Below are positions 1,858 through 28,422 of a DNA stretch of 39,305 nt, one piece after another (positions within the stretch are counted from its first letter, which is position 1; each line of letters starts with the position of its first letter). The position numbers and the translations under genes are program-made. Source of the stretch: a virus. Where the stretch lies: positions 1-39,305 of IMG/VR virus record IMGVR_UViG_3300008261_002369; one strand, written 5' to 3'. The notes below the pieces were generated by a model. The model was not told where the DNA came from, did not search any database, and saw only the letters and a program-made list of their open reading frames with translations.

Positions 1858-1902
1858 AATATTTTTTCCTTATAGTTATGTTCTACTACTTATAATAGTA
1901 AT

Positions 1903-2014
1903 TGGTGTGGTCGGTAGGATTCGAACCTACAAAGGCGATGTCTAAGACGTTGCCTCTCACCCTAACATCGTTTCCCAACGAGCTGGAGGTCTGCCATATT
2001 CCACTCACGACCAC
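1903..2014 (-). tRNA. Aberrant long tRNA, Leu-like D-arm, anticodon not assignable
   Basis: Acceptor strands GTGGTCG and CGACCAC pair fully, the discriminator is A and CCA is encoded. The T-arm is canonical (GTAGG TTCGAAT CCTAC). The D-loop GGAATATGGCAGAC resembles tRNA-Leu. The gene is 109 nt before CCA, about 20 nt longer than a normal type II tRNA, and no 5-bp stem with a 7-nt loop and U33 can be placed. Instead the middle contains TCGTT/AACGA and CGATGT/ACATCG stems. It could be a tRNA-Leu with an insertion, or a decaying gene. Confidence 0.6.
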
Positions 2015-2077: not shown

Positions 2078-3055
2078 ATGACAACTAATTTTCAAAATAT
2101 TCCGTTTAACAATATTGTACGATTTGGACAACGCACAATGTTAAGCCAACCGTTGTTTTCTACTAGCTGGATTTTGGGAAGATTTTGCAATTATAAATGT
2201 AGCTACTGTTGGCCCTATGCCCGCAGTGACAAAGTAGATCACCAATCGTTAGATGTATACAAACGAACAGTAGATGAAATCAAACGACAGGCTCGTGAAA
2301 ATGGATTCAATCAATTTCATTGGAGCTTCTCGGGCGGTGAGCCCACTGCTTATAAACAGTTAAATGATCTTGTTAAACATTTGGACGAAACCGAAAGCCC
2401 TTACCAAAGTATCCATATGACTACCAATTTGAGTCCCGGTAGCAAATGGTGGAACACTTGGTGTGCCAACACTGCGCTGTTACAACGTAGAAGTATTACA
2501 GCCAGCTTTCACGATGAGTTTGCCAAGGAACAAGAGTTTGGCGACAAGTGTTTACAGTTACAATACGAACTAGTACACGTTACAATCAATCAAGTAATGG
2601 TACCTGAAAAGTTTTATGAACTGTATGAACGCATGGAACGTTTCCATAAGCGTGGAATCAACGTAACGCTAAAGCCACAGAGTAATCCAACTGCATCGGG
2701 CATCGTTGATGGCTATACCGAAGACATGATACACAAGATGCAAACAGGATTTCCACAACGTGCTAATGGTGAAGACACTTACCAAATTGCCCTATATGAA
2801 GCAGACGGCACTGAACATTTATTCGATCAAGCAGAACGATTCAATGCCTACGGTTTTAACAAATTTAAAGACTGGGATTGCAATAGCGGATATCAAAGTG
2901 TTATAATAAGAGGTGAGGAAGTTAAAAGATCATATAGTTGTCATGATGAACCGTTAGGCTCTTTAGAAAAATTTGAGTTATTTAAAACTCCTCAACGCTG
3001 CATTACTCCTAACTGTGTGAGTTCAGCAGATAGCAAGATACCAAAATGCAAATAG
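2078..3055 (+). CDS. Radical SAM protein with SPASM-like C-terminal cysteines
   Basis: 325 residues. The 4Fe-4S-binding CxxxCxxC is C37-C41-C44 (FCNYKCSYC), and the SAM-binding GGEP follows at 86-89 (SFSGGEPT). Near the end the cysteines WDC, SYSCH, RCITPNC and KC resemble an auxiliary cluster (SPASM/twitch) like those in enzymes that modify peptides. The same C-terminal layout recurs in the proteins at 8709 and 9694. It is the first gene of a plus-strand operon and overlaps the next gene by 10 bp. The ATG follows a late-promoter-like motif without a ribosome binding site. Substrate unknown; fold and cofactor are clear. Confidence 0.9.
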   Translation: MTTNFQNIPFNNIVRFGQRTMLSQPLFSTSWILGRFCNYKCSYCWPYARSDKVDHQSLDVYKRTVDEIKRQARENGFNQFHWSFSGGEPTAYKQLNDLVKHLDETESPYQSIHMTTNLSPGSKWWNTWCANTALLQRRSITASFHDEFAKEQEFGDKCLQLQYELVHVTINQVMVPEKFYELYERMERFHKRGINVTLKPQSNPTASGIVDGYTEDMIHKMQTGFPQRANGEDTYQIALYEADGTEHLFDQAERFNAYGFNKFKDWDCNSGYQSVIIRGEEVKRSYSCHDEPLGSLEKFELFKTPQRCITPNCVSSADSKIPKCK

Positions 3056-3639
3056 ATACAGAACACCTACATTATTGGATGCAGGCCATCCGCCAAAGTC
3101 CTGATCCTATGAGGACCATGGATGCCTTTTGGCAGGGACAACTTAAAAGCAAAGAATGGTTAATTACTAACCTTCGTAAAAATGTAAACAAAGTTGTCAG
3201 CATTGACATTCATGGAGGGTGGGTTGGAGTATTAGCAAGTATGTTATTCCAAAGCGACATCTGCGTAACTACTATTCGTAGCATTGACATCGATCCATTG
3301 TGCGAACCTATTGCTACCATGATGAATAAAAAAGAAGAGATGGCTGGGATGTTTCGTGCTATCACTTCCGATATGTGCGAAATACGTAGCGATGCTGATG
3401 TTGTTATCAATACCAGCTGTGAACATATTACCCAGGACCAATATGACTTGTGGTTAAGTGGAATGCCGCATAATAGTTTGCTTGTTTTACAAAGTAACAA
3501 TTATAATATTCCAGAGCATGTTCGAACCGCAAAAGACCTAACTGAGTTTACACAACAATGTCAGTTAGAAAATGTTCTATGGACAGGCGAATTAGAATTG
3601 CCCTTGTACAAAAGATTTATGGTAATTGGACATCAATGA
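3046..3639 (+). CDS. Class I SAM-dependent methyltransferase-like protein
   Basis: 197 residues with a Rossmann-like pattern. A glycine-containing motif I sits at about 49-62 (VSIDIHGGWVGVLASML), and an acidic strand end IRSIDIDP at about 78-85 would bind the SAM ribose. A later TSDMCEI and VVINTSCEH could be the motif IV region. It overlaps both neighbours (10 bp upstream, 4 bp ATGA downstream), so it is translationally coupled to two radical SAM genes. It may methylate the same substrate or remodel an intermediate (inference). The methyltransferase call rests on pattern only; an inactive Rossmann protein is possible. Confidence 0.65.
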   Translation: MQIDTEHLHYWMQAIRQSPDPMRTMDAFWQGQLKSKEWLITNLRKNVNKVVSIDIHGGWVGVLASMLFQSDICVTTIRSIDIDPLCEPIATMMNKKEEMAGMFRAITSDMCEIRSDADVVINTSCEHITQDQYDLWLSGMPHNSLLVLQSNNYNIPEHVRTAKDLTEFTQQCQLENVLWTGELELPLYKRFMVIGHQ

Positions 3640-5171
3640 ACCACGCATTATTCTTTTCGTTAACAGGCAAGCGTTGGGAACGAGCCCTCTGGCCACACCG
3701 TGTGGCAACGTTTTTACGTATGAATGATTGGGACGCTGAAGTCGTTGACTTTACTGCTTTTTGGCGATTAGAAGAATTACAGGAACTAGTACGTTCACGT
3801 ACAACAGACAACACAGTTATGTTCTGTTTTGGCACAGCATTTTTAAATCCGTGGAGTCCTTACTTAAATGAATTCATTACGTGGCTTAAACTATCATACC
3901 CCACTATACCTGTTGTAGTCGGCGGCAATAATGCACTAGTTACTCCAGCTGATGGAGTTGACTACTGGGTAGATAGCTATGGTGAGAATGCTATCTTGTC
4001 GTTATGCAAGCATCTTACTGGTACATTAGGCGCACCGTTACTAACTGATCCTGCGTTTTTTGGTACAAAGAAAGTCATTAGGGGGTTATATCATTACCCA
4101 AGTACACCATTAGACAGCTATCTAGTAGACTACGAAGCTCGTGATTTTATGAGCCCGTATGATTGTCCGCAAATTGAAACAGCACGTGGTTGTATGTTTA
4201 GTTGCAGCTATTGTAATTTTCCATTACTTGGACAATCCAAAGACGTTAGTGTTAGCAAAGAAGAATTTAAACGTCAAATGCAAACGGGTTACGAGAAGTG
4301 GGGCATTAAAAATTGGCGAGTAATGGACGAAACGTTTAACGATCGCCCCGAGAAATTGCAAAAATATGCAGAGGCAGTCGACGAACTAGGATATGATCCG
4401 TGGATATGTGGATTTGCTCGCGGGGACTTAGTTGTTAAACACAAAGAGCACTGGGACACCTATATTAAATTAGGCTTCCTTGGCCACAGTATGGGTATTG
4501 AAACTTTTAATCATGAGGCCGGTAAACTTGTGCGCAAGGGAATGGATCCTGACAAGTTACAACAGGGCCTATTAGAGTTTCAGACATACACTGATACACA
4601 TGCACCTAAACGTTATAGAGCAAACATACAAATGATTTGCGGTATACCGGGCGAAACTACCGAGTCCTGGAACACTAGTTTAGCATGGTTGAATACTCAT
4701 TGGACTAGACAAAGCGCCAGCGCACACATATTAGAGATAGGCGACTATGATGAAACACTTACTAATCAAAGTCGATTTACCAAAGAGCTTGTAAGCAATG
4801 GTCTTGTTAAGTTAGAGGCAAGACAGAATCCAGGGTACGATGTTTTTAAAGATGCAAACAAAGATGTAGTCTTTCAATCAACAACTCCCAGGGGCGGTGG
4901 CGTAGGCAGTACCAGGAATGACATTGTTATTTGGCAACATAACACAATGGATTGGTACCAAGCTGAAACTCTAGTAAAAGATTTTTATTCAAACAACGGA
5001 TTTAAAGGCCTACGGGGGTGTAATCCTTTTCTGACTGATCGACTGTTTATCTATAATGAAACAAATCAATACGAAGATGTATATGATAAGAGAGTATCGG
5101 AAGTAGATACTGCTGATCAAAAATACAAAGACCACGTTCAAAATTATATTAATAAGAAACTAAATGTTTAA
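3636..5171 (+). CDS. B12-binding-type radical SAM protein
   Basis: 511 residues from the ATG at 3636, whose ATGA overlaps the upstream stop. The N-terminal ~150 residues look like the cobalamin-binding Rossmann domain of class B radical SAM enzymes (VVVGGNNALV, then DYWVDSYGENAI in the position of the usual GEGE). The radical SAM core begins with C186-C190-C193 (RGCMFSCSYC). Later ICGIPGETTESW fits the MiaB/Elp3-like core. No DxHxxG cobalamin motif is obvious, so true B12 binding is uncertain. Family members methylate unactivated carbons, make C-S bonds or rearrange rings. A longer start at 3558 would run inside the upstream gene. Confidence 0.85.
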   Translation: MNHALFFSLTGKRWERALWPHRVATFLRMNDWDAEVVDFTAFWRLEELQELVRSRTTDNTVMFCFGTAFLNPWSPYLNEFITWLKLSYPTIPVVVGGNNALVTPADGVDYWVDSYGENAILSLCKHLTGTLGAPLLTDPAFFGTKKVIRGLYHYPSTPLDSYLVDYEARDFMSPYDCPQIETARGCMFSCSYCNFPLLGQSKDVSVSKEEFKRQMQTGYEKWGIKNWRVMDETFNDRPEKLQKYAEAVDELGYDPWICGFARGDLVVKHKEHWDTYIKLGFLGHSMGIETFNHEAGKLVRKGMDPDKLQQGLLEFQTYTDTHAPKRYRANIQMICGIPGETTESWNTSLAWLNTHWTRQSASAHILEIGDYDETLTNQSRFTKELVSNGLVKLEARQNPGYDVFKDANKDVVFQSTTPRGGGVGSTRNDIVIWQHNTMDWYQAETLVKDFYSNNGFKGLRGCNPFLTDRLFIYNETNQYEDVYDKRVSEVDTADQKYKDHVQNYINKKLNV

Positions 5172-6252
5172 GTTCGATCAATTAGAAATTGTGCAGGTTG
5201 AGATCACTAATAGGTGTCAAGCATCCTGTCCAATGTGTCCTAGAAACATCCATGGCGGGATAGAAAATCCTCTTTTGCCTTTGAATGATTGGAGTCTTGA
5301 TGACTTTATTACAATTTTTTCAATGGATGTGTTAGAACAAATTAATCAACTCAGCTTCTGTGGAGACTTTGGCGATCCTATTCTAAATAATAATCTAATC
5401 AAAATGTGTGAGTATGTAAAAGAGCATGCTCCTAATATTGAAGTTCTAATACATACCAACGGCAGCGCAAGATCTGCCTCGTGGTGGAAACTGTTAGCAC
5501 AGTCGTTGCCGCCAAATCACAGAGTAATTTTTGCGTTAGACGGGCTAGAAGGTACTCACCACATTTATCGTATCGGCACGTCGTTCAAAAAAATTATCGA
5601 TAATGCCTGTGCCTTTATTCAAGCAGGCGGAATTGCCGAATGGGTCTTTATTAAATTCAAACATAACGAACATCAGGTTAGCGAAGCAGAAAAAGTATCG
5701 GCCAAAATTGGTTTCAAACGTTTTACAGTAAAGAATAGTAAACGATTCAGTAGACCGTTCCCTGTAGTAGATGCTGATGGTAAACTTTTATATAACATAG
5801 AGCAAACTACAGATAGCGTAGTTAAGTTTGTTAGCAAGAATGATGTTGCTGGGCATCAAGAGTGGCCGAGAGCTGACGAGATACATTGTCAATCACAAAA
5901 TGACAAAGAGCTGTACATCGATGCTCACTACCTATTGAGTCCGTGTTGTATGATTGGCGCATTCATGTATACCAGTTATGATTCTAAATTATTGAAACAG
6001 TATAATTTATATGAAGAAGATTCCATTGTAGAAGAAGGCGCAAAAGTTCAAGAACAGGTATTATCGTTTCCAAAATTTAATGTGTTAACTACAGGGTTAA
6101 AAAACATTGTCGATACTGATCAATGGCAAACTATGTGGCAGAAAAAATGGGATGAAAGATCCAGTTCTACTTGTATAATAATGTGCGGACCATACAGTCC
6201 TTACATAAGTATCAATGAGCAAAAAATTAAAATTGTAGAAACTAATGTTTAA
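5164..6252 (+). CDS. Radical SAM/SPASM-like protein, tandem paralogue 1
   Basis: 362 residues. The cluster cysteines are C18-C22-C25 (NRCQASCPMC), very close to the N-terminus. Where most members have GGEP this one has FCGDFGDPILN. A C-terminal region with IHCQSQ, YIDAHYLLSPCC and IIMCGPY supplies cysteines for an auxiliary cluster. Its start overlaps the upstream stop by 8 bp (ATGTTTAA). It is clearly duplicated in the next gene: shared features include QASCPMC, FALDGLE, THHxYRxGT and FKHNEHQV. The pair must act late in the same pathway or on related substrates (inference). Fold certain, reaction unknown. Confidence 0.9.
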   Translation: MFKFDQLEIVQVEITNRCQASCPMCPRNIHGGIENPLLPLNDWSLDDFITIFSMDVLEQINQLSFCGDFGDPILNNNLIKMCEYVKEHAPNIEVLIHTNGSARSASWWKLLAQSLPPNHRVIFALDGLEGTHHIYRIGTSFKKIIDNACAFIQAGGIAEWVFIKFKHNEHQVSEAEKVSAKIGFKRFTVKNSKRFSRPFPVVDADGKLLYNIEQTTDSVVKFVSKNDVAGHQEWPRADEIHCQSQNDKELYIDAHYLLSPCCMIGAFMYTSYDSKLLKQYNLYEEDSIVEEGAKVQEQVLSFPKFNVLTTGLKNIVDTDQWQTMWQKKWDERSSSTCIIMCGPYSPYISINEQKIKIVETNV

Positions 6253-7306
6253 ATTTAACGAAATAAAACAAGTACATTTGGAAATATCCAATAACTGCCA
6301 AGCAAGTTGTCCTATGTGCAGTAGAAATATTGATAGCGGTAAAGAAAACCCGTTGATTAAAATCAACGAATGGACCTTTGAAGATTTTAAAACCATCATG
6401 TATCCAGAGTTTTTGAAACAATTGCACAGTTTCTATTTCTGCGGGACGTTCGGCGATCCGATGCTTAACAATGATTTAATCAAGATGTGCGCATATGCAA
6501 AGATCACTGCTCCTACAGTACACGTAGCAGTACATACAAATGGTGGTGCCCGTACAACCGACTGGTGGCAAAAGCTAGCTCAGGCATTACCGTCGGACCA
6601 CATTGTTGTCTTTGCATTAGATGGACTAGAAGATACACATCACCTGTATCGAGTAGGTACTAAATTTGAAACGGTTCTAAAAAATGCACAGGCATTTATA
6701 GCTGCTGGCGGAAATGCAGAATGGTGTTTTATACGATTCAAACATAATGAACATCAAGTTGAAGATGCAAGACGCATGGCAGATGAATTAGGGTTTGCAA
6801 GATTCACCTTAAAAAACAGCAGTAGATTTATCATAGAACCGAGACAGGCTGTTGTAGATCGAGCTGGTAATTTAACACATTATGTTGAGCCAGCATCTGA
6901 TACTCCTTTAAAATTTATTGATAGAAAAGTTATTCAGGCTTACAAGGAAATTCTTGCTGATTCGACTATTCATTGTAAAGCACAACATGAAAACGAAGTG
7001 TACATCGATGCATACAAAGATTTTTATCCTTGTTGCTGGATGGCAAATATACCTTATACAGTTATCAGCGATGACGAAGCTGCCGGTGTACGTAACGAAA
7101 TGAAACGTCAACATGACGATATGAGTTCAAGATTGGGTACTGTTAATCTAATAGAGCGTCCGTTACAAGATATAATTGATTCAGAAGCATTTCAAACTAT
7201 GTGGGACGACTACTGGTATAAGGAAAAAATGATTGTCTGTGCTAGAAGCTGTGGGGTAGGTCCTACAAACACCTTTGCTAAATTTAAGGATCAGGAAGTT
7301 AAATGA
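6245..7306 (+). CDS. Radical SAM/SPASM-like protein, tandem paralogue 2
   Basis: 353 residues and colinear with its upstream neighbour. The cluster cysteines are C18-C22-C25 (NNCQASCPMC), and FCGTFGDPMLN again replaces GGEP. C-terminal IHCKAQ, YIDAYKDFYPCCW and CARSCG form the likely auxiliary cluster site. The start overlaps the upstream stop by 8 bp in the same ATGTTTAA context as that gene, so the duplication copied the junction too. It overlaps the next gene by 4 bp (ATGA). The copies have diverged widely while motifs are kept, so both are probably functional. Confidence 0.9.
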   Translation: MFKFNEIKQVHLEISNNCQASCPMCSRNIDSGKENPLIKINEWTFEDFKTIMYPEFLKQLHSFYFCGTFGDPMLNNDLIKMCAYAKITAPTVHVAVHTNGGARTTDWWQKLAQALPSDHIVVFALDGLEDTHHLYRVGTKFETVLKNAQAFIAAGGNAEWCFIRFKHNEHQVEDARRMADELGFARFTLKNSSRFIIEPRQAVVDRAGNLTHYVEPASDTPLKFIDRKVIQAYKEILADSTIHCKAQHENEVYIDAYKDFYPCCWMANIPYTVISDDEAAGVRNEMKRQHDDMSSRLGTVNLIERPLQDIIDSEAFQTMWDDYWYKEKMIVCARSCGVGPTNTFAKFKDQEVK

Positions 7307-8712
7307 AAGTATTTTGGCTACAGCCCGAAGATACTCGTATTGGTGCAGGCCAGAGATTAATTGAGAAACTCACTGGAAGTTATAGCTTCTGTGCCCTTCC
7401 TTGGATTCATATGGCTACTCGCCCTAATGGAGATGCTAGATTGTGTTGTGTTACTAACGCTAGCGGAGCTCATACTGGCGATCATACTGTAGGATTGGTT
7501 AAAAAAGAAAACGGAGAGCCTGCAAACTTTGGCAAGGATACTCCTCTAAGCGCATTCAACAATGAATATATGCGTGATGTACGTAAGACAATGCTAGAAG
7601 GTAAGATACCAGCTAGTTGTAGTAAATGTTTTGAAGAAGAAAGCAACGGTATTGTGAGCAAACGTCTATGGGAAATGTATGAATGGAATCGCGATGGGTT
7701 AGATGTTGCTCAACTAATTGCCGATACCACAGAAGATGGAGTAGTTCCTCCTGTTATTCGTTACTTAGATCTAAGGCTTGGGCATACCTGCAATTTAAAA
7801 TGTGTTATGTGTAGTCCGCACGATAGCAGTCGTTGGATACAGGATCATGCTAAAGTAGTTAACATGACTTCTAGTCCTATTGTGTTAAAACAAATCGATT
7901 GGAAAGCAGCAGAATTTAATAATACTTGGTACGAGAAGCCAGAATTTTGGAACGATGTATTTGATCAAATTCCTAATATAACACAGTTATACTTTGCTGG
8001 CGGTGAGCCTTTAATGATTAAAGAGCATCGTAGATTCTTAGATGAAATTATTAAACGTGGATATGCCAAACAAATTAGTCTACGCTATAATTCAAACGGC
8101 ATTTTTGTCAACCAAGAAATAATTGATATCTGGGCACAGTTCAAACAGGTGCGGTTTGCATTTAGCATCGATGCAGTACACTTACGTAACGGCTATATTA
8201 GATTTCCGACCGATTGGCAAGACATCTTAGCTAGTTTACGTCTAATGGACAATGCTCCTGATAATGTACATTGTGCTGTTGCTTGTGCGGTACAGGTGTT
8301 AAACGTCAAACATATTGTCGATTTTGCTAAATGGAAGTTAGAACAGAACTTTAAAAAAATTAATAAGTTTAAATTAGATGATTATGAAACAGGGGGCGGT
8401 ATCATAAATCTACACCTGTTATATATTCCTACTTTCTTGAGTGCTAGGATACTACCGCAAAAAGACAAAGACGAAATACGGCAACAGTTTGTTGAATTTA
8501 AACAATGGTTATGGGACAATTACACTCAAGACGACAACTTCTGGCATCATAATCCCTATGGCTGGAAACGATGGGAAGGCATTTTAAAATTTATTGATGC
8601 AGAAGACCATAGTCATATGTTGCCAGACTTCAAAGAGTACATTAAAAACTTAGATGAAATTCGACATCTGGATGCTAAAAAAATATTTCCAGAACTGGCA
8701 CACATATTATGA
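7303..8712 (+). CDS. Twitch/SPASM-first radical SAM protein
   Basis: 469 residues. An N-terminal cysteine domain comes before the core: C30 (YSFCALPW), C48-C49 (RLCCV) and C106/C109 (SCSKCFEE). This is the arrangement of twitch-domain radical SAM proteins of marine T4-like phages. The core cluster is C163-C167-C170 (TCNLKCVMC), followed by SSRW and FAGGEPLM. Function in phages is unknown. The protein at 10580 on the other strand has the same architecture. ATGA overlaps join it to genes on both sides, so it is part of one translation-coupled unit. Confidence 0.9.
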   Translation: MKVFWLQPEDTRIGAGQRLIEKLTGSYSFCALPWIHMATRPNGDARLCCVTNASGAHTGDHTVGLVKKENGEPANFGKDTPLSAFNNEYMRDVRKTMLEGKIPASCSKCFEEESNGIVSKRLWEMYEWNRDGLDVAQLIADTTEDGVVPPVIRYLDLRLGHTCNLKCVMCSPHDSSRWIQDHAKVVNMTSSPIVLKQIDWKAAEFNNTWYEKPEFWNDVFDQIPNITQLYFAGGEPLMIKEHRRFLDEIIKRGYAKQISLRYNSNGIFVNQEIIDIWAQFKQVRFAFSIDAVHLRNGYIRFPTDWQDILASLRLMDNAPDNVHCAVACAVQVLNVKHIVDFAKWKLEQNFKKINKFKLDDYETGGGIINLHLLYIPTFLSARILPQKDKDEIRQQFVEFKQWLWDNYTQDDNFWHHNPYGWKRWEGILKFIDAEDHSHMLPDFKEYIKNLDEIRHLDAKKIFPELAHIL

Positions 8713-9710
8713 AAAAAATTCCTATAAAAATTATATCAACACAAGAACCAGATGTCCTTCACGTAAGGTTCATACCCACTGACATCTGTAATTTCAACTG
8801 TTCTTATTGTTTCCCTGGTTCTGGAAATGTAAACAAATTTAGATACCCAAAGAATATTGACACAGTTATCAAGAATTTCCGTATATTGTTCGATGCATAC
8901 ACTAACAATCTTAACAAAACAAAATTTAACTTGATGCTTACTGGCGGCGGCGAACCAACTATATGGCCGCATATTGAAAAGTTTTGTAAAGAAATAAAAG
9001 AACAACACGATGTTCGCATTACTGTTATTACCAACGGATCTCGTACACTAAATTGGTGGAATGAAAATTCAGCATACTTTGATGCAGTAACTTTAAGCGG
9101 ACATAATGAGTTTACTGATATCGATCACTATGTTGCGGTCGCTGATAAGTTACACAGCAACGGAGTTAAAGTAAACGGACTTATGTTAATGGATGCACAA
9201 AATTGGGATAAGTGTATTTCATATGTTGAAAAGATGAAACAAAGTGAATATCCTTGGTATATTCAAACTAAGGAAGTTGTTGATTCGCCTGGACGGGGAA
9301 TGGATGTCTACAACGAAGAACAGCTGGCCTATGTTAATGCTAGTCTCAAGCGTGTTCCTGATTCTGATTGGATTATTAGAAACTTTGGAGACATTAGAAC
9401 ACACGAAAGTATTGTGATGTTTGATGATGAGTCAGCATATCCTGCTAGAGCACATTCGATTATAGTTAATCGATGGAACAAATTTAAAGGCTGGAAGTGT
9501 AATGTTGCGTTAGAAACACTATTGATAAACCCAGACGGATCAGCAACAGGTTCGTGTCAGGAGTCAGTATTTGGGGATAATGTGCCTAATGTATTTTCAG
9601 AAACATTTGAACAAGACTTTGCCCCAATAATTGATTTTAAGTCAATCATATGTCCACGCGAAACATGCTCATGCCAACCAGAGACACATGTTACTAAATC
9701 TTTAATTTAG
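8709..9710 (+). CDS. Radical SAM protein with SPASM-like C-terminal cysteines
   Basis: 333 residues. Core cysteines are C27-C31-C34 (DICNFNCSYC), with LTGGGEPT as the SAM-binding loop and VITNGS next. The C-terminal cysteines (WKCNVALE, GSCQES, IICPRETCSC) match the layout in the proteins at 2078 and 9694, so these three form a subfamily. It is the last gene of the plus-strand radical SAM operon. Its end overlaps the convergent gene at 9694 by 17 bp, with no terminator between them. Confidence 0.9.
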   Translation: MKKIPIKIISTQEPDVLHVRFIPTDICNFNCSYCFPGSGNVNKFRYPKNIDTVIKNFRILFDAYTNNLNKTKFNLMLTGGGEPTIWPHIEKFCKEIKEQHDVRITVITNGSRTLNWWNENSAYFDAVTLSGHNEFTDIDHYVAVADKLHSNGVKVNGLMLMDAQNWDKCISYVEKMKQSEYPWYIQTKEVVDSPGRGMDVYNEEQLAYVNASLKRVPDSDWIIRNFGDIRTHESIVMFDDESAYPARAHSIIVNRWNKFKGWKCNVALETLLINPDGSATGSCQESVFGDNVPNVFSETFEQDFAPIIDFKSIICPRETCSCQPETHVTKSLI

Positions 9711-11848: not shown

Positions 11849-12569
11849 TTGCCCACGCCCTTTCTTTACACCAAAAACATTCGTTACATAACGGAACAAA
11901 TTGTCCAGGTGTATATGTTTTATAATTTATTCCGTTAAACTCGCCTTCGCAGCTACGGGTAATATTAAATAGATCTTCAATGTCTAATCGTTTGTATTGA
12001 TTAACTATCCAAGACTTTTCTACAAATCTAAACGGGTGAATTGCGTATTTCCCCATATGGATCATTATTGTTAAATGTTGATTACTTTCGTTGGGGTCAA
12101 TGTCTCTTTCCGACATCCCTTTAAAATTTACATCTTTAGGATTGCGTGTAACAGCATTATAGTACGCATCAACATCTTCACGATGACAAGTAAATTCAGC
12201 AAATGATCGTTGTTCTATATTATCACCACTAACATTTTTTCCGTATTCGTCTGTCAATGACGGACCTATGTTTCCGTACTCTAATTCGGGTGCTATAAAA
12301 TTAATATGTCTCTGGAATGTTATATTAGGAAATCGATGTGTAAGCCAGTTATAAACAGACACGCTGTCCCATTGTTGCCATGGTCTTGTTTTCCACATAC
12401 GTACATGGCTAATGACATGAACTTTGAAATTCTTTTGATAGCTAGGAACTAGGTTGCAAAGAAGATAAGCTAACATAGCACTATCAGCGCCACCGCTTAC
12501 ACTAATGGCAATATTATTCCATGTAGTTTCGAATGGTATATTAACTCCGTCTACATTATGTAACTTCAT
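11832..12569 (-). CDS. PP-loop ATPase, QueC-like
   Basis: 245 residues. The PP-loop SGGADS is at 25-30 (ISVSGGADSAML), the ATP-binding motif of enzymes that adenylate a carbonyl or carboxylate (QueC, TilS, asparagine synthetase types). The C-terminal cysteines (RSCEGEF, then LCNECFWCKER) match the C...CxxCxxCxxR zinc site of QueC, which makes preQ0 for queuosine and for 7-deazaguanine DNA in some phages. The middle is unlike textbook QueC and no queD, queE or folE gene is visible here, so a different amidation or thiolation reaction is equally possible. ATGA couples it to the aminotransferase-like gene upstream. Confidence 0.75.
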   Translation of the reverse strand: MKLHNVDGVNIPFETTWNNIAISVSGGADSAMLAYLLCNLVPSYQKNFKVHVISHVRMWKTRPWQQWDSVSVYNWLTHRFPNITFQRHINFIAPELEYGNIGPSLTDEYGKNVSGDNIEQRSFAEFTCHREDVDAYYNAVTRNPKDVNFKGMSERDIDPNESNQHLTIMIHMGKYAIHPFRFVEKSWIVNQYKRLDIEDLFNITRSCEGEFNGINYKTYTPGQFVPLCNECFWCKERAWAIEQQH

Positions 12570-13414
12570 TGTTCTAAATACCTTATCAATGGGCTTACCC
12601 CTACTGGATGTCCGTCCTTTATTGCTAGGTGTATACTTCGTGTTGGAAGTAAATTGAAATCTCTACAGACTTTATAATAATGTTCACCATACGTTAACCA
12701 AAGATAATCCGGTGGCAAATTGCGTATAAAATGTAAGCCAATCATTGCCAATGCACGATTGTTCATATGGAAGTCATTCATTATTGTAACACTATCTAGA
12801 GTTGATTGCCGAGTCCAACGTAAACCTATTCTGTTCCATCCTAACCCTAGACCCTTGGAAAGACTAATACCAACACTAGATATAGCAGGATGCCCATAAT
12901 CAAATATGATATTACGACAACAGGTGGTCCAAGCACCGTCAATGTGGACCTTAATCTTTTTAACCAAACATTCATTTAATATTTCCTCCATGTCTTGATG
13001 TGGCGCACCGATGCTAGGAAACGGCATCGCTAGGATTAATGGAACATCTGGTATCAGCGAGCCCACATCTTTTACATACGCTAATCCCAATCTTTCGTGA
13101 TATTTGTAATCGTTACGTAATACTTGTACAGGCCCTTGCATGTATAAGTTATCAATAAATTGTGTACATCCGTTTATAATATCTTTGCGTAAAAATGAAT
13201 CAAGCCCTATAAAATTATTAAACGGAGACCTCAGTAGCCATTGCTCAACTTCAAATTTAAAATTGTCATAGACGCTGTCCGTAATATCCTTGTCAATTTT
13301 TCCACTTAATACATCTTGCTGAAGTTGTTCAATTTTAAAATCAGTGAGAGGCTGCGGCCTCTCAATCTCAAGCCATTGTGCATCGTAAGTCGGTGCAATG
13401 GTTATTCTACTCAT
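12566..13414 (-). CDS. PLP-dependent aminotransferase-like protein (class I/II fold), short
   Basis: 282 residues. The segment HIDGAW (D159) and then ISLSKGLGL with K187 and GWNRIGLRW (R195) match the PLP-binding Asp, the Schiff-base Lys and the phosphate-binding Arg of fold-type I aminotransferases. Upstream NGCTQFIDNL recalls the N-terminal part of the domain. At 282 residues it is about 100 shorter than usual and has little of the C-terminal small domain, so it may be reduced or repurposed. It heads the minus-strand operon, coupled by ATGA to the PP-loop gene. GTAAATA lies 4 nt before the ATG, with no Shine-Dalgarno. Confidence 0.7.
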   Translation of the reverse strand: MSRITIAPTYDAQWLEIERPQPLTDFKIEQLQQDVLSGKIDKDITDSVYDNFKFEVEQWLLRSPFNNFIGLDSFLRKDIINGCTQFIDNLYMQGPVQVLRNDYKYHERLGLAYVKDVGSLIPDVPLILAMPFPSIGAPHQDMEEILNECLVKKIKVHIDGAWTTCCRNIIFDYGHPAISSVGISLSKGLGLGWNRIGLRWTRQSTLDSVTIMNDFHMNNRALAMIGLHFIRNLPPDYLWLTYGEHYYKVCRDFNLLPTRSIHLAIKDGHPVGVSPLIRYLEQ

Positions 13415-13418
13415 GTTT

Positions 13419-13425
13419 TATTTAC
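13419..13425 (-). promoter_or_regulatory. T4-late-like promoter motif GTAAATA
   Basis: On the minus strand GTAAATA ends 4 nt before the ATG at 13414, without a ribosome binding site. It sits back to back with the plus-strand motif at 13441-13448 inside a 38-bp divergent spacer. Confidence 0.45.
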
Positions 13426-13440
13426 ACCATTAAAGTATCA

Positions 13441-13448
13441 CATAAATA
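13441..13448 (+). promoter_or_regulatory. T4-late-like promoter motif CATAAATA
   Basis: CATAAATA differs from the T4 late consensus TATAAATA by one base and ends 4 nt before the ATG at 13453. No Shine-Dalgarno is present. Confidence 0.55.
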
Positions 13449-13452
13449 TTTC

Positions 13453-14124
13453 ATGCTAACTAAGTTACATTATACAGTCTCTACAAATCTGATACAAGAC
13501 GCACTACAGTCCGTTCCGCCTACTGATTTCCGGTTGACTATTAATGAACCAACGGGTAGATTCTTTTATGATCCCTGGGAAACCAAATTAGAGTATAAAG
13601 ATACAGCTTGGGAAAAGATTTTAAACACACTTCCTGTAGATTTTGGAGAAGCTAGGATTATCGGCTTAAAGGCAGGGGAATGTTATCAGTGTCATTCCGA
13701 CATTGACGATCGTTACCATTTAAATCTTTCTGGTAGCGAAAGTTTTATAATTAACATTGATAGCCAAGAAATGTTTGAAACTACCCAAGATGGATTTTGG
13801 TATGAAATGGATGCTAGTCCAAGGCACAGTGCAGCAAACTTTGGCCAGATAGTTCGAGTACAATTGGTTGTAAGAAAACTATTGACCCCTAACATTTTGA
13901 ACAACCCAATCGATGTTAAAATTACGCCATCGAGGTTAGATCAAAATAATGCTAGATTCTTTTTTGATCAAACTATTAGTGTGTGGTTGAATTATGCCAA
14001 TAAAAATAATTTGATAACTGCATTTAACCACACACCGACTTGTGTTTCTTTCACTATAGAAAAGATAGCAATAGATGATTTGAAAAATATTTTATATCCT
14101 GAATTCGAGTTACACATATTATGA
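13453..14124 (+). CDS. Aspartyl/asparaginyl beta-hydroxylase-like 2OG oxygenase
   Basis: 223 residues from ATG 13453. The iron ligands are probably H81-S-D83 (CYQCHSDIDD) and H125 (DASPRHSAANFG), with R135 for 2OG. The order HxD, acidic ligand strand, then PRHSxxN is that of the AspH family (PF05118), which hydroxylates Asp/Asn, Pro or His in proteins. The last ~80 residues are an extra helical segment of unknown role. It overlaps the kinase-like gene by 4 bp (ATGA). A reading from 13378 would cross the divergent promoter region and is rejected. Confidence 0.8.
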   Translation: MLTKLHYTVSTNLIQDALQSVPPTDFRLTINEPTGRFFYDPWETKLEYKDTAWEKILNTLPVDFGEARIIGLKAGECYQCHSDIDDRYHLNLSGSESFIINIDSQEMFETTQDGFWYEMDASPRHSAANFGQIVRVQLVVRKLLTPNILNNPIDVKITPSRLDQNNARFFFDQTISVWLNYANKNNLITAFNHTPTCVSFTIEKIAIDDLKNILYPEFELHIL

Positions 14125-14804
14125 TAGATACAACCAATTGGAAATATTACTACAAGCAAGATCCTGTAGATAAGATCCGATGTGCCACAAATTTATTGTA
14201 CACTCCGTTGATTAATCCGGAGGGCAATATAATGTGCATGTTGTGGGATGAAACTAGTGAATACCAAAAAGAAAATACACGGCTTACAAAAGAATTAGTA
14301 GATTTCTTTTTTGAAAGAGAAGTTAAGTATCTTGAAATATTTCAAGGGTACAGTTGGGCACCTTCCATTATTGAAATTGATAAAGAAAACAAAAAGATTT
14401 TTATCGAATGGAATGTTGAAACTTGCAATGATATTGTATATACTGATAGCCGTGACATTGACAAAGAGTGCTCGGATTGGCAACCACAATTATTCAATAT
14501 TTTAAAAGACGTTGTCTCTGCCGGGTATTACAAAATGGCGTTATATCCCCATTGCTTTTATCTAGATAAAAATAATAAATTAAAAACCTTTGATTTTTAT
14601 TCTTGTATTTCTCATGAAGAGAGATATCTTGAAAAAGCTAAAATAGAAGGTATGTTAGGCCAAGGATCAAGAACTCGATTTGATGAAGTTACTTCTGATG
14701 GGTTAATAGATTTTGAAATGTTTTTTAAAAGAACACTTTCAACACATGTGAAATGGCCAGGTGATCCGTTTCCAAAATTTTATAAAAGGTTATTCAATGA
14801 ATAG
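14121..14804 (+). CDS. Kinase-fold-like protein, paralogue 1
   Basis: 227 residues. Not a family I can name. It resembles a small protein/aminoglycoside-kinase fold: an FFEREVKYLEIF helix at about 63-74, an IIEIDKENKKIFIEW hairpin like a hinge strand, and HCFYLDKNNKLKTFDFYSC at about 147-165 in the position of HGDxHxxNxLxxxxGxxxxIDF. The catalytic HxD is not intact (PHCF), so it could be a pseudokinase or a different fold. Its paralogue lies at 18787. Both sit in plus-strand units beside 2OG or radical SAM genes. Coupled by ATGA upstream and by an 8-bp overlap downstream. Confidence 0.5.
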   Translation: MIDTTNWKYYYKQDPVDKIRCATNLLYTPLINPEGNIMCMLWDETSEYQKENTRLTKELVDFFFEREVKYLEIFQGYSWAPSIIEIDKENKKIFIEWNVETCNDIVYTDSRDIDKECSDWQPQLFNILKDVVSAGYYKMALYPHCFYLDKNNKLKTFDFYSCISHEERYLEKAKIEGMLGQGSRTRFDEVTSDGLIDFEMFFKRTLSTHVKWPGDPFPKFYKRLFNE

Positions 14805-15345
14805 TGTTACATCGTTAGGCACGTCAGGAGGAGAGTATAACTGGAGTCAACTGATTGCCGTTATATCATCCCAACAAGGAAAAACAATTACTACAGATCC
14901 AGAAATATGGAATTTAGAAACTCCGGGATACAAAGAAATATATGAAAGATGGCAAGCTGCTAATTTCAATATGGACAGTATCAAATGGACTAATTTTTAT
15001 CCTAAAGAACATTTTGATGAAATGTTTGCAACAAAGTTTGCTAAAGACATGGGCGGTAGATTAGTACGTGCCTGGATAAGTCGAATAGACCCGGGCTATA
15101 TGGCTCCGTGGCATTGGGATGTTGACGAAGAGGAAGCTGCTTATCTTGAAAAAGGAACTTTAACAAGATATAGTTGTTTTATGGAAGGTGCTAATCACGG
15201 CCATATTCTTATTGTAGGTAATGATTATCTGTACAATCAAGATTTTGGACAGTTGATAAAGTGGAACAATTACAAAGAATGGCACAGCGGAATCAATGCC
15301 GGACTACGTCCACAGTATATTTTTCATATAATTGTTCATAGTTAA
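14797..15345 (+). CDS. 2OG-Fe(II) oxygenase-like protein
   Basis: 182 residues from ATG 14797, 8 bp inside the upstream gene. Ligand candidates are H106-W-D108 (APWHWDVD), H163 (EWHSGIN) and R171. GHILIV and LIKWNNYKEWHSG form the jelly-roll strands. It is homologous to the convergent gene at 15342: GHI.V, a strand ending in W, H.g.N.G and an Arg align in order. The two share the TTAA at 15342-15345 as both stop codons. Substrate unknown. Confidence 0.75.
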   Translation: MNSVTSLGTSGGEYNWSQLIAVISSQQGKTITTDPEIWNLETPGYKEIYERWQAANFNMDSIKWTNFYPKEHFDEMFATKFAKDMGGRLVRAWISRIDPGYMAPWHWDVDEEEAAYLEKGTLTRYSCFMEGANHGHILIVGNDYLYNQDFGQLIKWNNYKEWHSGINAGLRPQYIFHIIVHS

Positions 15346-15866
15346 TCGTACATAGTTATTTGTAGAGTGTATCTTGTGTTGTATCCTATATTTGCCGGCC
15401 CGTGTACGGTCATAGGATCACTCCACTCAAATACATCACCGGCTTTATAATTTGCAGCAACTTTGTCATCGTAGACAAATATGTGTCCGGGTTCCCAATC
15501 TTGTAAAAACATAGTGTATCGTACCGGATTACTGACTTCAGTCAGTTGAGGGTCGATGTGCATAGCTTGGAACTCGCCAGGATATAACATTACAAACCAC
15601 CAATTAACGTCGGTTCGTGTTTCAGGCAACTCAGGTAGAGTAAATTTAAAATTTTGCATTTCTTTAGATTTTGGATTCATCTGATGAAAGAAAAAATTAT
15701 TATTTGAATAACCAGGTCGAGCCATTTCTTTAAATTTTTCTAATGTTGTATTCCCACTCCACCGATCAGGTTGCCATACAGGAGTACAATCGCCTTTGCA
15801 TGAAATAAGGTGTTCCATAATCTTTTGGTCTTCAATCCAAGATTTGTAGTTTCCAATAAATTTCAT
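15342..15866 (-). CDS. 2OG-Fe(II) oxygenase-like protein, convergent paralogue
   Basis: 174 residues. Ligand candidates are H103-I-D105 (QAMHIDPQ), H155 (MTVHGPAN) and R165, with GHIFVYDDKV and FEWSD between. This is the same jelly-roll pattern as in the convergent gene at 14797. It follows the larger oxygenase at 15866 with a 1-bp overlap (TAATG) and ends the minus-strand unit that starts at 18730 with two radical SAM genes, so it may finish a pathway begun by them (inference). Confidence 0.8.
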   Translation of the reverse strand: MKFIGNYKSWIEDQKIMEHLISCKGDCTPVWQPDRWSGNTTLEKFKEMARPGYSNNNFFFHQMNPKSKEMQNFKFTLPELPETRTDVNWWFVMLYPGEFQAMHIDPQLTEVSNPVRYTMFLQDWEPGHIFVYDDKVAANYKAGDVFEWSDPMTVHGPANIGYNTRYTLQITMYD

Positions 15867-16666
15867 TAATAGTTCTCTAAATGATCAACGCCTAACTGTT
15901 TACGGAATGCTTGTGTAAATTTGCCGTCAATGCGTAACCCGTAGCTCTGTTCCATAATCTGTTCACCACCGTGCCAGTCAACATCATTCCACCATGCAGC
16001 ACGGCAGTTCAAGTAAGTTTTATTTTTAGTCTCTGGATCCCACAGGTACATTGCCTTCTTAGTGTTAGGACGTATATGTATAAATTCATTACGATGCGGG
16101 ACAACAACATTAACCCCATTCCGAGCATCTAAGTCTCTGTGTTCAAACGGGATGCCGTCTGCTTCGCAATGAAAGAATATAACACGCCCAATATCTTCAA
16201 ACACTGTACCTACAAGGCTTTCGACCCACTTAACTACATTAGGGAAATATTGTGCTTCGGGTGTTAGTTTGCGAGGTGCTGTTCTATCGTCCCACGAACC
16301 TTCTTCCCACAAGTAATAATAGATGTAAGGATCATAAGCACCCATGGCCATTTTTAAGAAACGAGTGAATACGTTACGTTCTTGAAAGTTTTTAAAATTC
16401 TTAGGCATTAGTGCCATACCTGCTTGTTTAAGAGGCCCGTCTGGCAATGCTTTAAATTCTTCCATTGCTTGGTATATAGGTTTCCAGTGCAGCTTATAGC
16501 TCATATCATCAAAGGTAAACCCCGGTGCCATCCATGTACCTTCTTTAGCATGATGTCTTGCTACAGCAAATCCTGTTAGGATTTCTGGCTGCATTTTTTC
16601 AAATGCTTCCATATCCACATATTGTTCCATGTTGTAATATGTTTTATTGTTTATTCCGTGTATCAT
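15866..16666 (-). CDS. Larger 2OG-Fe(II) oxygenase-like protein
   Basis: 266 residues if it starts at ATG 16666. Ligand candidates are H176-R-D178 (FEHRDLD), H232 (DWHGGEQ) and R245, separated by FIHIRP and MYLWDP strands. A ~150-residue helical N-terminal domain precedes the jelly roll. Three ATGs are possible: 16699, 16666 (preceded by CAGAGAAA, overlapping the upstream gene by 23 bp) and 16630 (just after the upstream stop, no ribosome binding site). I prefer 16666. It lies directly downstream of two radical SAM genes. Confidence 0.75.
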   Translation of the reverse strand: MIHGINNKTYYNMEQYVDMEAFEKMQPEILTGFAVARHHAKEGTWMAPGFTFDDMSYKLHWKPIYQAMEEFKALPDGPLKQAGMALMPKNFKNFQERNVFTRFLKMAMGAYDPYIYYYLWEEGSWDDRTAPRKLTPEAQYFPNVVKWVESLVGTVFEDIGRVIFFHCEADGIPFEHRDLDARNGVNVVVPHRNEFIHIRPNTKKAMYLWDPETKNKTYLNCRAAWWNDVDWHGGEQIMEQSYGLRIDGKFTQAFRKQLGVDHLENY

Positions 16667-17675
16667 ATTTTCTCTGATATTTTTCAGGTACAGTATCATA
16701 TAAAGGTAAATTTTTATTTACTGCACCATCTCTAAGTATAACTTGGTGAACAAGTGGGGACACTGGTTTTCCCGGCAGCATATCAGCCCAAGACTCAGTT
16801 TGCTCTTCTTCAAGGTCAATAGTACGTACATCTGGCCATTGAATAATTTTAACTAAAATGCCATTAATTCGCAAAGGATAATGTACTCTAATCCCATATT
16901 CTGGATCATACTCATGTTGCCATCCTTTCTTGTCACACACTGCAATTACCATTTCTATCAGTTCCGATAGAAATACTTTTTCCTCGCCAGGGTGACGGCC
17001 AATGTCTGTACCAACCCGAATTCGATACTGACTACAAATTCTATTACCGAACTCTTGTATTTCTTCTAAGCAGTATTCAAGCTGAGAAATAGTTTCAAGA
17101 GTGTAACTAACATTCTTAATTTTCATTCCTAGCTTTAAACAATTTTCAATACCTTCAATTTGTTTCTTTCTAACAGTTGCACCTTGATAGTCGGGGTGAT
17201 TTAATCCAACCGTCCACAACACTTTCGGCATGTCTGCAAATTGTTCAGCATATTCGTAATCGGACAAATATACCCCATTGGTTAAAATCATAATTGCACG
17301 AGTCTTGCCGGGTAATGATTGAATAGCCCTGCATAGTTCAGGAAGATCTTTTCGAGTCGTTGGCTCTGCGCCCATTAACGCAACAGCATACCCGTCATCA
17401 TCCCAAGATTTTATTATATTAAGAATATCGTCTATTGACGGATCCTTACTCATATTGTCGGGGATTTGATAACAATGTGGGCAATTTAAATTGCATCTAT
17501 TAGTGAATGTATAGTTAATATAAAAATCAGCGTTAGGCTCTACAAGATATTCTGACTCTCCGTGCCATACGCATTTTTTACTCAACCAAATAGCACCGTC
17601 TCGTTCAAATCGAACTGCTGGCACATGTCTATAACAATGCTCACAAATTGATGTAGTGTCTGCTAATTTTTTCAT
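16644..17675 (-). CDS. Radical SAM protein with rubredoxin-like N-terminus, paralogue 2
   Basis: 343 residues. The N-terminal zinc/rubredoxin-like site is C11/C14 (ICEHCYRHVPA) and C35 with H38 (KKCVWHG). The core cluster is C61-C65-C68 (NRCNLNCPHC), then LMGAEPTTRKDL. The CxxC...CxxHG N-terminus followed by NRCNLxCPxC is the layout of the archaeal MJ0619/Tes-type radical SAM enzymes, which work on lipid chains or methylate. Similarity is by pattern only. It is a tandem duplicate of the upstream gene and overlaps it by 4 bp (ATGA). The C-terminal LPLYDTVPEKYQR is shared. Confidence 0.88.
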   Translation of the reverse strand: MKKLADTTSICEHCYRHVPAVRFERDGAIWLSKKCVWHGESEYLVEPNADFYINYTFTNRCNLNCPHCYQIPDNMSKDPSIDDILNIIKSWDDDGYAVALMGAEPTTRKDLPELCRAIQSLPGKTRAIMILTNGVYLSDYEYAEQFADMPKVLWTVGLNHPDYQGATVRKKQIEGIENCLKLGMKIKNVSYTLETISQLEYCLEEIQEFGNRICSQYRIRVGTDIGRHPGEEKVFLSELIEMVIAVCDKKGWQHEYDPEYGIRVHYPLRINGILVKIIQWPDVRTIDLEEEQTESWADMLPGKPVSPLVHQVILRDGAVNKNLPLYDTVPEKYQRKYDTRNKQ

Positions 17676-18730
17676 ATGTCCTGTCTTTGATACTTTTCCG
17701 GTATAGTATCAAATAACGGTAATCCTTTGTTTATTGCCTGATCTCTTAATATCACTTGATGCAATAAAGTTGACATTGGCTTTCCTGGCACAATGTTAGC
17801 CCAAGATTCACTTTGTACTTCTTCAAGGTCAATAGTTTTGACATCGCACCATTTAATAAATTTATGCTCTGCACCGTTAATATCTACAGCGTAGTGTGTT
17901 CTGTTACCACCAACAATATCCGGAAAATATGTCCAATTTTTTTCTGTACATATTTTTTCAGCTTCGCATACTAATTCCGAAAGATACAGTTCGCTATCTT
18001 CAGTCTCCTCCGGAACTCGACCAATATTAACTCCTACTTGTATTCTTGCATTATGACAAACGCCTCTTCGATGAAATGTTTGCACTTCCTCGAGAACATC
18101 AGTTAATTGAGTTAAATTGCCTAATGTGTAAGTTAATGTTTTAACTTCGAGCCCTAATTTAATGCAGTTCTCTAAACCTTCTAACTGCTTAACTCTAATA
18201 TTGCCGCCGTTGTAATCTGGATGATTTAATCCAAACGTCCATTTAAGTCTAGGGATACCTTCGAATCTTTTTACATAATCCCATTTAGCAAGATACACCC
18301 CGTTAGTGACTATTATAACAGTTCTAGGTTTGCCGGGCAATGCCTGTATGGCTAACACTAAATCTGCAAGATCTTTTCTTACTGTAGGTTCTGCCCCAAC
18401 AAGACTAACAGGCAAACCGTCATCGGGCCAAGATTGTACCTGCATTAACAAATAATCAATGTCTGGGTCTTTGCTAGTGTTATCTGGAATTTGATAACAA
18501 TGTGGACAATCTAAATTGCACCTATTAGTAATATCTAACCAATATGAGCTAGGAGTTCGGCGAGTATATTTTTGACTTTTATAAAATTCTGTGTTAATAT
18601 CTAATATTGCTTCTTGATATCCGTGTTTGGCGCACGTCTTACCTAACCACATTGCTCCTTCGCGCTCAAACCGTTCTGCAGGAATATGTCGATAACAGGT
18701 TTCACAAAGTGATACAGTTTGGGTAGTCAT
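17672..18730 (-). CDS. Radical SAM protein with rubredoxin-like N-terminus, paralogue 1
   Basis: 352 residues. It has the same order as its downstream twin: CETCYRHIPAERFEREGAMW, KTCAKHG, core cysteines in NRCNLDCPHC and GAEPTVRKDL. It differs mainly by a ~9-residue insertion before the core (KYTRRTPSS). It is the first gene of a minus-strand unit that continues with the twin and two 2OG oxygenases. AGGA at 18739-18736 is a proper Shine-Dalgarno, and a late-promoter-like CATAAATA lies 29 nt before the ATG. Reaction unknown; MJ0619/Tes-like chemistry is one possibility. Confidence 0.88.
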   Translation of the reverse strand: MTTQTVSLCETCYRHIPAERFEREGAMWLGKTCAKHGYQEAILDINTEFYKSQKYTRRTPSSYWLDITNRCNLDCPHCYQIPDNTSKDPDIDYLLMQVQSWPDDGLPVSLVGAEPTVRKDLADLVLAIQALPGKPRTVIIVTNGVYLAKWDYVKRFEGIPRLKWTFGLNHPDYNGGNIRVKQLEGLENCIKLGLEVKTLTYTLGNLTQLTDVLEEVQTFHRRGVCHNARIQVGVNIGRVPEETEDSELYLSELVCEAEKICTEKNWTYFPDIVGGNRTHYAVDINGAEHKFIKWCDVKTIDLEEVQSESWANIVPGKPMSTLLHQVILRDQAINKGLPLFDTIPEKYQRQDI

Positions 18731-18759
18731 TAAAATCCTAAATTATATTTGTCTCACGA

Positions 18760-18767
18760 TATTTATG
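18760..18767 (-). promoter_or_regulatory. T4-late-like promoter motif CATAAATA
   Basis: The motif ends 29 nt before the ATG at 18730 and gives a leader that contains a Shine-Dalgarno (AGGA). It overlaps no gene and faces the plus-strand motif at 18774-18780. Confidence 0.55.
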
Positions 18768-18773
18768 GATAAA

Positions 18774-18780
18774 TTAAATA
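18774..18780 (+). promoter_or_regulatory. T4-late-like promoter motif TTAAATA
   Basis: TTAAATA ends 6 nt before the ATG at 18787, with no Shine-Dalgarno in between. Confidence 0.5.
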
Positions 18781-18786
18781 CAACCT

Positions 18787-22284: not shown

Positions 22285-22292
22285 GTTAGTCC

Positions 22293-23800: not shown

Positions 23801-23802
23801 TG

Positions 23803-28339: not shown

Positions 28340-28415
<76 letters not shown>

Positions 28416-28422
28416 ATAATAC

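Follow-up and report, generated by a model that had tools for sequence, protein, structure and literature searches.

A co-inherited, radical SAM-rich gene block in a virus genome and its possible role in decorating virion proteins

Several phage genomes rich in radical S-adenosylmethionine (SAM) genes are already in print. The T4-like marine viral genome TARA_ERS488813_N000010 is listed with 12 genes of the radical SAM superfamily, under Fe-S metabolism (PMC5332604), and the Aeromonas jumbo phage 332-Vera has eight inside its structural cluster, together with tail fibre genes (PMC12390700). In pelagimyophages, for which two genomes were compared, radical SAM cassettes lie in a hypervariable region of tail fibre and glycosyltransferase genes, while freshwater SAR11 phages are described in the same paper as lacking radical SAM genes (PMC7029224). 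The Ralstonia jumbo phages RP12/RP31 and FLC6 carry such genes too, and FLC6 has 2-oxoglutarate (2OG) oxygenase genes at nearby gene numbers (PMC5468394, PMC8066314). Two further papers mention radical SAM, in the relevant passages, solely as an auxiliary gene that is abundant or doubtful (PMC7150976, PMC9301287), and one lists a single phage gene (PMC6143709). Here we examine the IMG/VR virus record IMGVR_UViG_3300008261_002369, a stretch of 39,305 bases from an uncultivated virus of bacteria that we call the window, in which a block at 2078-21451 holds ten radical SAM genes (r1 to r10). A literature search, outside which most subscription journals and preprints fell, found no description of this conserved block or of its function.

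A profile search with the radical SAM model PF04055 (curated cut-off 29.5 bits) matched all ten open reading frames (ORFs) in 2078-18730, nine of them above the cut-off and the tenth, r3, at 25.7 bits. Each has a single CxxxCxxC motif. When residues were shuffled, the mean number of proteins among the ten having one fell to 0.07, and a chance origin of the motifs is rejected. Profile searches against solved structures placed r9 and r10 closest to Tes (7TOL, E 4e-27), and matched r1, r6 and r7 to MoaA (E 4e-14), r5 and r8 to Tes (E 1e-6) and r2 to TokK (E 6e-4). Solved folds were thus matched for eight of the ten proteins, r3 and r4 having been compared with PF04055 and NCBIfam models only. By profile, the ten cores carry a radical SAM fold.

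Three of the proteins, r1 (2078..3055, plus strand; core 2186-2209; PF04055 50.9 bits), r6 (8709..9710, plus; core 8787-8810) and r7 (9694..10587, minus; core 10495-10518), form one subfamily with a SPASM-like tail, SPASM/twitch-like in r1, whose four C-terminal cysteines (C268, C288, C308 and C313 in r1) are invariant in 18 sequences. A twitch domain comes first in r5 (7303..8712, plus; core 7789-7812) and r8 (10580..11899, minus; core 11447-11470; its TTG start is uncertain), which score 384.6 and 328.6 bits with N_Twi_rSAM NF033640 (curated cut-off 170), the best score listed among the other eight being 44.1; r8 also exceeds the cut-off for SPASM PF13186. The Tes-related r9 (16644..17675, minus; core 17472-17495) and its paralogue r10 (17672..18730, minus; core 18497-18520) begin with an HMPTM zinc ribbon (PF23545, 50.4 and 50.2 bits; cut-off 27). 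The related pair r3 (5164..6252, plus; core 5215-5238) and r4 (6245..7306, plus; core 6296-6319) is related to PHROG 21308 and represents a fifth architecture. Lastly, r2 (3636..5171, plus; core 4191-4214), whose ORF opens at 3558 and whose start in relatives is 3636, has PhpK/TokK-like methyltransferases nearest to it. By its N-terminal extension and its TokK profile similarity it is a putative B12-type radical SAM enzyme, whose N-terminal domain may bind cobalamin; its score with the PhpK family is below the cut-off.

The original prediction, made from the letters of the window without database searches, had proposed ten radical SAM proteins within 17 kb, and both the number and the SAM-binding fold of the cores hold. 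What it took for core positions are gene starts or ends, with the cores inside. Its four architectures, SPASM-like, B12-type, twitch-first and one with a rubredoxin-like N-terminus, broadly hold, the last corresponding to the PF23545 zinc ribbon at 16644 and 17672; the proteins at 5164 and 6245 form a fifth, related pair.

Scores against the PhpK, Tes and viperin models stay below the cut-offs. With the PhpK model TIGR04479 r2 reaches 56.9 bits against a cut-off of 600, and with the Tes model NF045702 r9 and r10 reach 72.6 and 68.3 bits against a curated 450. Viperin-type defence is rejected, as the best NF038283 score is 52.2 bits (r6) against 180; the best PADLOC pVip score among the nine proteins scanned (r3 was left out) is 49.7 bits. 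None of the radical SAM proteins of the window reached the cut-off of a QueE or tRNA-modifying radical SAM model in the NCBIfam search. As a separate observation, r9 of the window lacks 12 residues that directly precede the CxxxCxxC core in the other aligned members, and measures 343 aa against 355 aa in the near-identical contig L009, an in-frame change that may have an effect on the protein of the window.

Relatives of the block are numerous in IMG/VR. Confirmed stretches number 67 for r2 (65 loci), 93 for r9/r10, 349 for p15866, a 2OG-oxygenase-like partner gene, and 468 for k18787, a kinase-like one. For the last two, the best-scoring 80 each were examined, and neighbourhoods were counted only at loci with 8 kb on both sides (57 of 80 for p15866 and 43 of 80 for k18787); several contigs recur between the scans or are near-duplicates, and a near-twin of the window is included. 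At least three radical SAM-family genes accompany p15866 in 50 of the 57, a count that covers only the ten families of the window, and with the non-radical SAM seed k18787 at least two are found in 41 of the 43, all of which contain p15866. Fewer than two occur in two neighbourhoods of each set. A core recurs around p15866, consisting of k18787 (56 of 57), its paralogue k14121 (55), the cupin-like c14761 (50), g19461 (49; also in 40 of the 43 k18787 neighbourhoods) and r9 (46). On the scale of whole contigs, PF04055 gave 4-15 matches in each of 42 related contigs (of about 68, chiefly the longer ones), 6-13 in 14 of 14 and 10-14 in 5 of 5 of two further sets. In each of seven large contigs that we picked (110-270 kb), 7-13 matches fall within 30 kb, which random placement equalled in 0-27 of 20,000 trials. 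With neighbourhoods shared in this way and clustering beyond chance, we reject the view of these genes as scattered auxiliary genes.

Nor are they pseudogenes: the median ratio of non-synonymous to synonymous differences (pN/pS) lies between 0.14 and 0.34 in 19 of 21 families, indicating purifying selection, with no usable comparison for r6 and c14761, one to three comparisons for the AspH-like gene, k14121, h20006 and r4, and pS near saturation. Mantel tests of distance matrices gave r 0.14-0.90, with p <= 0.014 for 19 of 20 family pairs and one non-significant pair (p15866 and r5, p 0.128). The highest values are those of r2 with r9 (r 0.90) and r9 with k14121 (r 0.82); pairs with p15866 range from 0.14 to 0.52. 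Among relatives, r2 occupies two alternative positions. Because the matrices correlate over this range, we conclude that the genes of the block are inherited together, but as a shuffled mosaic whose members are swapped.

Cellular homologues were sought in 84,980 genomes with two short degenerate patterns per scan, which can miss distant relatives; none of 23 pattern stretches was confirmed for r9/r10, and none of 24 for the putative pyridoxal phosphate (PLP) enzyme of the block, AT. Among 50,697 phage records, in which four of the ten radical SAM proteins were searched, r5 had three weak matches, r10 four weak ones, r8 two and r2 none.

The lineage of the phage can be approached through its relatives. 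A 186-kb relative (the source of G036) encodes a gp23-like capsid protein that shares 64-68% identity with the capsids of Vibrio phage 2.275.O, the Sinorhizobium phage Phosso and Pseudomonas phages of the PA5oct type. Searches of 35 other contigs and of another five yielded three and one further capsids of this kind, the last on a 269.7-kb contig, making five relatives in all, with contigs of 200.8 and 269.7 kb among them; it was not matched in 36 contigs (32 + 4), mostly fragments but including ones of 158, 169 and 191 kb. The capsids of these five relatives, to which this evidence is confined, point to jumbo T4-type phages, a type with genomes over 200 kb; the window itself covers only 39 kb. 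PF04055 at E 0.001 or better has no match in 2.275.O, Paride and P-SSM2, one each in HTVC008M and T4, four each in Phosso and Atu_ph07, and six in Vibrio phage K566. The 186-kb relative also has a second radical SAM group about 120 kb from the island (L094:1056-3077 and L093:17740-19999), with a 673-aa B12-type-looking protein whose PF04055 score is above the cut-off and two twitch-first-looking proteins; it adjoins genes that look glycosyltransferase-like and fibre-like by eye.

The core of T4-type late promoters is TAAATA. In the window and loci L009-L091, with only distinct upstream sequences counted, 93 of 173 unit-leading genes have this motif in the 60 bases ahead of them, but just 38 of 625 internal genes do; random 60-mers contain it in 2.4% of cases. 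In 67 of 95 occurrences it begins 10-14 nt ahead of the start codon. It precedes r1 in 8 of 9 cases, r10 in 14 of 19, the AspH-like gene in 29 of 39 and AT in 18 of 26; the internal p15866 carries it in 14 of 42. Of the 115 genes in the initial 160 kb of the 186-kb relative, 31 have it in front of them, including ones named by eye as fibre-like, baseplate-like and portal-like. As the motif is shared with structural genes, the island is probably transcribed late, together with the virion genes. A Shine-Dalgarno-like site is missing in 73 of the 76 unit-leading sequences that have the motif within 25 nt; together with the spacing, this suggests leaderless or nearly leaderless late transcripts.

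The block is closely packed. Its 21 genes fill 2078-21451 with 94 non-coding bases in total; when the likelier starts are used, genes overlap by 1-68 bases, and the two gaps are divergent promoter regions of 38 bases between AT and the AspH-like gene (13415..13452) and 56 bases between r10 and k18787 (18731..18786). There is consequently no room for a separate precursor gene. A radical SAM cluster for a ribosomally synthesized and post-translationally modified peptide, with an adjoining precursor, was not found in 2078-21451; a precursor encoded elsewhere or overlapping another gene could still exist.

Among the partners of the radical SAM genes, MT (3046..3639, plus) is a putative Rossmann methyltransferase-like protein by our reading, with no Pfam, PDB or PHROG match. 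In the PP-loop protein (11832..12569, minus) an SGGADS-type motif and four C-terminal cysteines (C207, C228, C231, C234) are conserved in 16 sequences, and there are weak matches to ATP_bind_3 (17.6 bits, below the cut-off of 27) and to a QueC-like PHROG (E 9e-4). The cysteine set resembles the C-terminal four-cysteine zinc site of QueC. AT (12566..13414, minus) is a putative PLP fold-type I enzyme in which HxDGAW and SLSKG are invariant in 15 sequences; its nearest match is L-allo-threonine aldolase, at E 0.5 only.

Four proteins have 2OG-oxygenase-like HxD...H motifs, all below Pfam cut-offs. These are the AspH-like protein (13453..14124, plus; its ORF opens at 13378, with an ATG at 13453; PF05118 E 7e-4, 19.9 bits, cut-off 22.6), c14761 (14797..15345, plus; ORF opening at 14761; Cupin_2 13.7 bits), a protein at 15342..15866 (minus) recognized by its motif only, with no Pfam or PHROG match, and p15866 (15866..16666, minus; ORF opening at 16699), which has EHRD...DWHGG...R and no Pfam, PHROG or PDB profile match. 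The motifs of c14761 and of the 15342 protein were assigned by eye.

Both k14121 (14121..14804, plus) and k18787 (18787..19473, plus) are kinase-like: their joint profile has a best kinase match at E 0.0013, and the predicted structure of k18787 (AlphaFold2, mean predicted local distance difference test score, pLDDT, 90.7) resembles IRAK4 (Z 13.5, root mean square deviation 3.2, 192 aligned residues). The HRD aspartate position is Y, M or L in 27 of 27 kinase-like sequences (the 20 rows taken as k18787 include one of k14121), and the DFG aspartate is kept as D in the k14121 group but reads N in that of k18787. With the catalytic HRD aspartate replaced in both paralogues, an active kinase pair is rejected. 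Next to them, g19461 (19461..20012, plus) is a conserved protein with no match in a Pfam search, and h20006 (20006..21451, plus; pLDDT 81.6) is a predicted fusion. Its N-terminal GT-A glycosyltransferase-like domain has STIV A197 (Z 11.3), the PBCV-1 capsid glycosyltransferase (Z 11.0) and the collagen lysyl hydroxylase LH3 (Z 10.6) as nearest folds. The C-terminal domain resembles class I methyltransferases, with EgtD (Z 9.5) and NNMT (Z 9.0) nearest to it.

Downstream, an oxygenase block on the minus strand (21448..24660) holds TauD genes at 21448, 22937 and 23803 and an AspH gene at 22293, with Pfam scores above the cut-offs. Beyond these oxygenases, about 4 kb from the block, stands a tail-type gene (25322..26989, minus) with the major tropism determinant N-terminal domain Mtd_N (PF18454, 35.3 bits, cut-off 26.3), and at 34755 a tryptophan halogenase-type gene. 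The window also has 22 tRNA genes at 28340-39266, all on the minus strand, with short ORFs between them, some oxygenase-like by eye. At its left end our ORF reading gives a ThyX-like gene. A sequence at 1855-1975 (minus) resembles a long-variable-arm tRNA with matching acceptor ends; it was not called by ARAGORN and is not convincing in Rfam, which had nothing above the gathering threshold in 1-28000.

Isolated phages offer analogous cassettes. The rhizobial jumbo phages Phosso and Atu_ph07 (from Agrobacterium) share a radical SAM cassette near a giant structural gene, and Phosso has a capsid related (66.6%) to that of the 186-kb relative. The three Phosso radical SAM proteins scanned come nearest to the PapB, DynA and geopeptide maturases, without reaching a cut-off. 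Beside the radical SAM genes stands a gene for a Cys-His-tailed protein (L251:18415-19335, minus, in Phosso; L252:13119-14009, minus, in Atu_ph07) with the C-terminus CH(T/S)SCHASCH(S/N)SRSRR, a possible radical SAM-modified virion protein and as such a candidate substrate. In K566, four twitch-first radical SAM genes are interleaved with genes that we read as glycosyltransferase-like, near a protein that we likewise read as tail-like.

The view that the genes form a pathway rather than separate auxiliary functions has gained from these results, in that content is conserved, the genes cluster, purifying selection acts on them and a promoter-like motif is shared by about half of the unit starts. 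The close packing of interleaved genes was rightly seen, and far from being scattered the genes are co-inherited, if as a shuffled mosaic. As for the partners that had been named, the PP-loop protein stands on its SGGADS-type motif, the aminotransferase is weak and the methyltransferase is without any match. Of the two kinds of pathway proposed, biosynthetic or macromolecule-modifying, the context would speak more for the latter, with a macromolecule of the virion or of a surface as the likelier target.

We tentatively favour, at somewhat less than even confidence, a late-expressed island that decorates virion proteins, most likely nearby-encoded tail fibres or receptor-binding proteins, a substrate predicted from context. 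In such a scheme an island of a jumbo T4-type lineage would install complex non-canonical groups on virion proteins: the 2OG oxygenases would hydroxylate side chains, the radical SAM enzymes would form C-C, C-S or epimerised centres, r2 would methylate unreactive carbons, h20006 would add and methylate a sugar, and the PP-loop and PLP enzymes would supply or amidate a building block, while k18787 and k14121 would recruit the substrate or scaffold the enzymes without phosphorylating. This reading is suggested by the Mtd_N tail-type gene nearby, by the TAAATA motif shared with structural genes and by the lack of room for a precursor; by the nearest folds of the glycosyltransferase-like domain of h20006, which include the PBCV-1 capsid enzyme and LH3; and by the radical SAM genes of Phosso/Atu_ph07, K566 and 332-Vera, which sit near structural or tail genes. 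Several points weigh against it. No substrate was identified. Among 9,410 ORFs (at least 60 aa, redundant) from 239 related loci and the window, none has the CHxxCHxxC tail of the isolates, and a search of the related loci for substrates with CHxx or HxS repeats found none. The motif is uneven: it precedes k18787 in only 4 of 25 cases and k14121, where this leads a unit, in 0 of 6, and no exact TAAATA stands before the capsid gene of the 186-kb relative. Late timing fits any late function. The fold matches of h20006 are at just 2-14% identity and so speak for folds, not functions. The hypervariable tail region of such phages collects other cargo too (PMC7029224), so neighbourhood is not function. 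Lastly, an optional halogenase, an AMP-ligase and an amidinotransferase-like protein (our reading, with no Pfam match) fit a small-molecule pathway equally well.

That pathway, yielding a diffusible small molecule or modified peptide of natural-product type that acts on host or competitors, is a doubtful alternative: these optional enzymes join PLP-like, PP-loop, B12-type radical SAM and oxygenase proteins in a mix resembling tailoring suites, yet the members do not share an assembly enzyme, as the AMP-ligase (U9) is present in 4 of 57 p15866 neighbourhoods, and the packing of the block leaves no space for a precursor gene. It is also rather unlikely that the island acts on the host surface, altering a glycan or lipopolysaccharide during infection so that receptors change and competing phages are excluded. 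Such a change has been proposed for the glycosyltransferases of pelagimyophage tail regions (PMC7029224), h20006 resembles a glycosyltransferase-methyltransferase, and next to some relatives lie genes for UDP-glucose dehydrogenase (scoring above its cut-off), a glycosyltransferase-like protein (scoring below) and an SGNH-like one (our reading, no Pfam score above cut-off). Leaving h20006 aside, few loci have the glycosyltransferase-like U12 (6) or the dehydrogenase U26 (3), though the SGNH-like U0 occurs in 42, and with late promoters the time left for changing the surface would be short. Modification of nucleic acid, either phage DNA hypermodification or tRNA modification, could draw on the QueC-like PP-loop protein, the ThyX-like gene (by eye) and the 22 tRNA genes; we consider it improbable, given that QueE and tRNA-modifying radical SAM models stayed below cut-off (other DNA-modification genes lay outside the search) and that the promoter motif is common to structural genes. 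Most improbable of all is a hot spot that gathers unrelated cargo with no common pathway. Gene order does vary, genes are gained, lost and duplicated, and distance matrices correlate only moderately with that of p15866 (r 0.14-0.52); against this stand the core recurring in the 57 p15866 neighbourhoods and the tight pairs r2-r9 and r9-k14121.

Going beyond virion decoration as such, it is conceivable, if on the unlikely side, that a phage-specific tailoring machine of about ten radical SAM enzymes, at least four 2OG enzymes and pseudokinase scaffolds, not seen in cells so far, writes a new and rapidly diversifying tail-protein modification that serves as a host-range or anti-recognition code. 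Should the favoured reading of the island be right, some 20 kb of phage genome would be given to radical and oxidative chemistry on the phage's own particles or the infected cell, which would be both a new layer of recognition between phage and host and a place to find new enzymes. Whatever the mechanism, the block is made up of gene families that are conserved and widespread; for two of them (r9/r10 and the PLP-like enzyme) our scans confirmed no cellular relative, and analogous cassettes in named isolates allow the question to be tested.

Set beside the described systems, the island resembles the T4-like genome TARA_ERS488813_N000010 in having many radical SAM genes; the passage on that genome, with which we compare by description, gives no cluster, order or function. 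The likeness to 332-Vera is also one of description, and that phage is a phiKZ-like member of the Chimallinviridae and not T4-type. Pelagimyophages, which are T4-like, have radical SAM cassettes at the tail region, and the account of them describes no conserved 20-gene block (PMC7029224). For RP12/RP31 and FLC6, set beside the island on the same descriptive basis, few radical SAM genes are named. The cassette of Phosso and Atu_ph07 is different from the island and has weak similarity to the window families. Among characterized enzymes, Tes/HMPTM-type radical SAM proteins share the zinc ribbon of r9 and r10 and provide their closest solved structure, while r9 and r10 score far under the Tes cut-off. 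Radical SAM-rich phage genomes are already in print, with their function unexplained there, and this conserved block is a new form of them.

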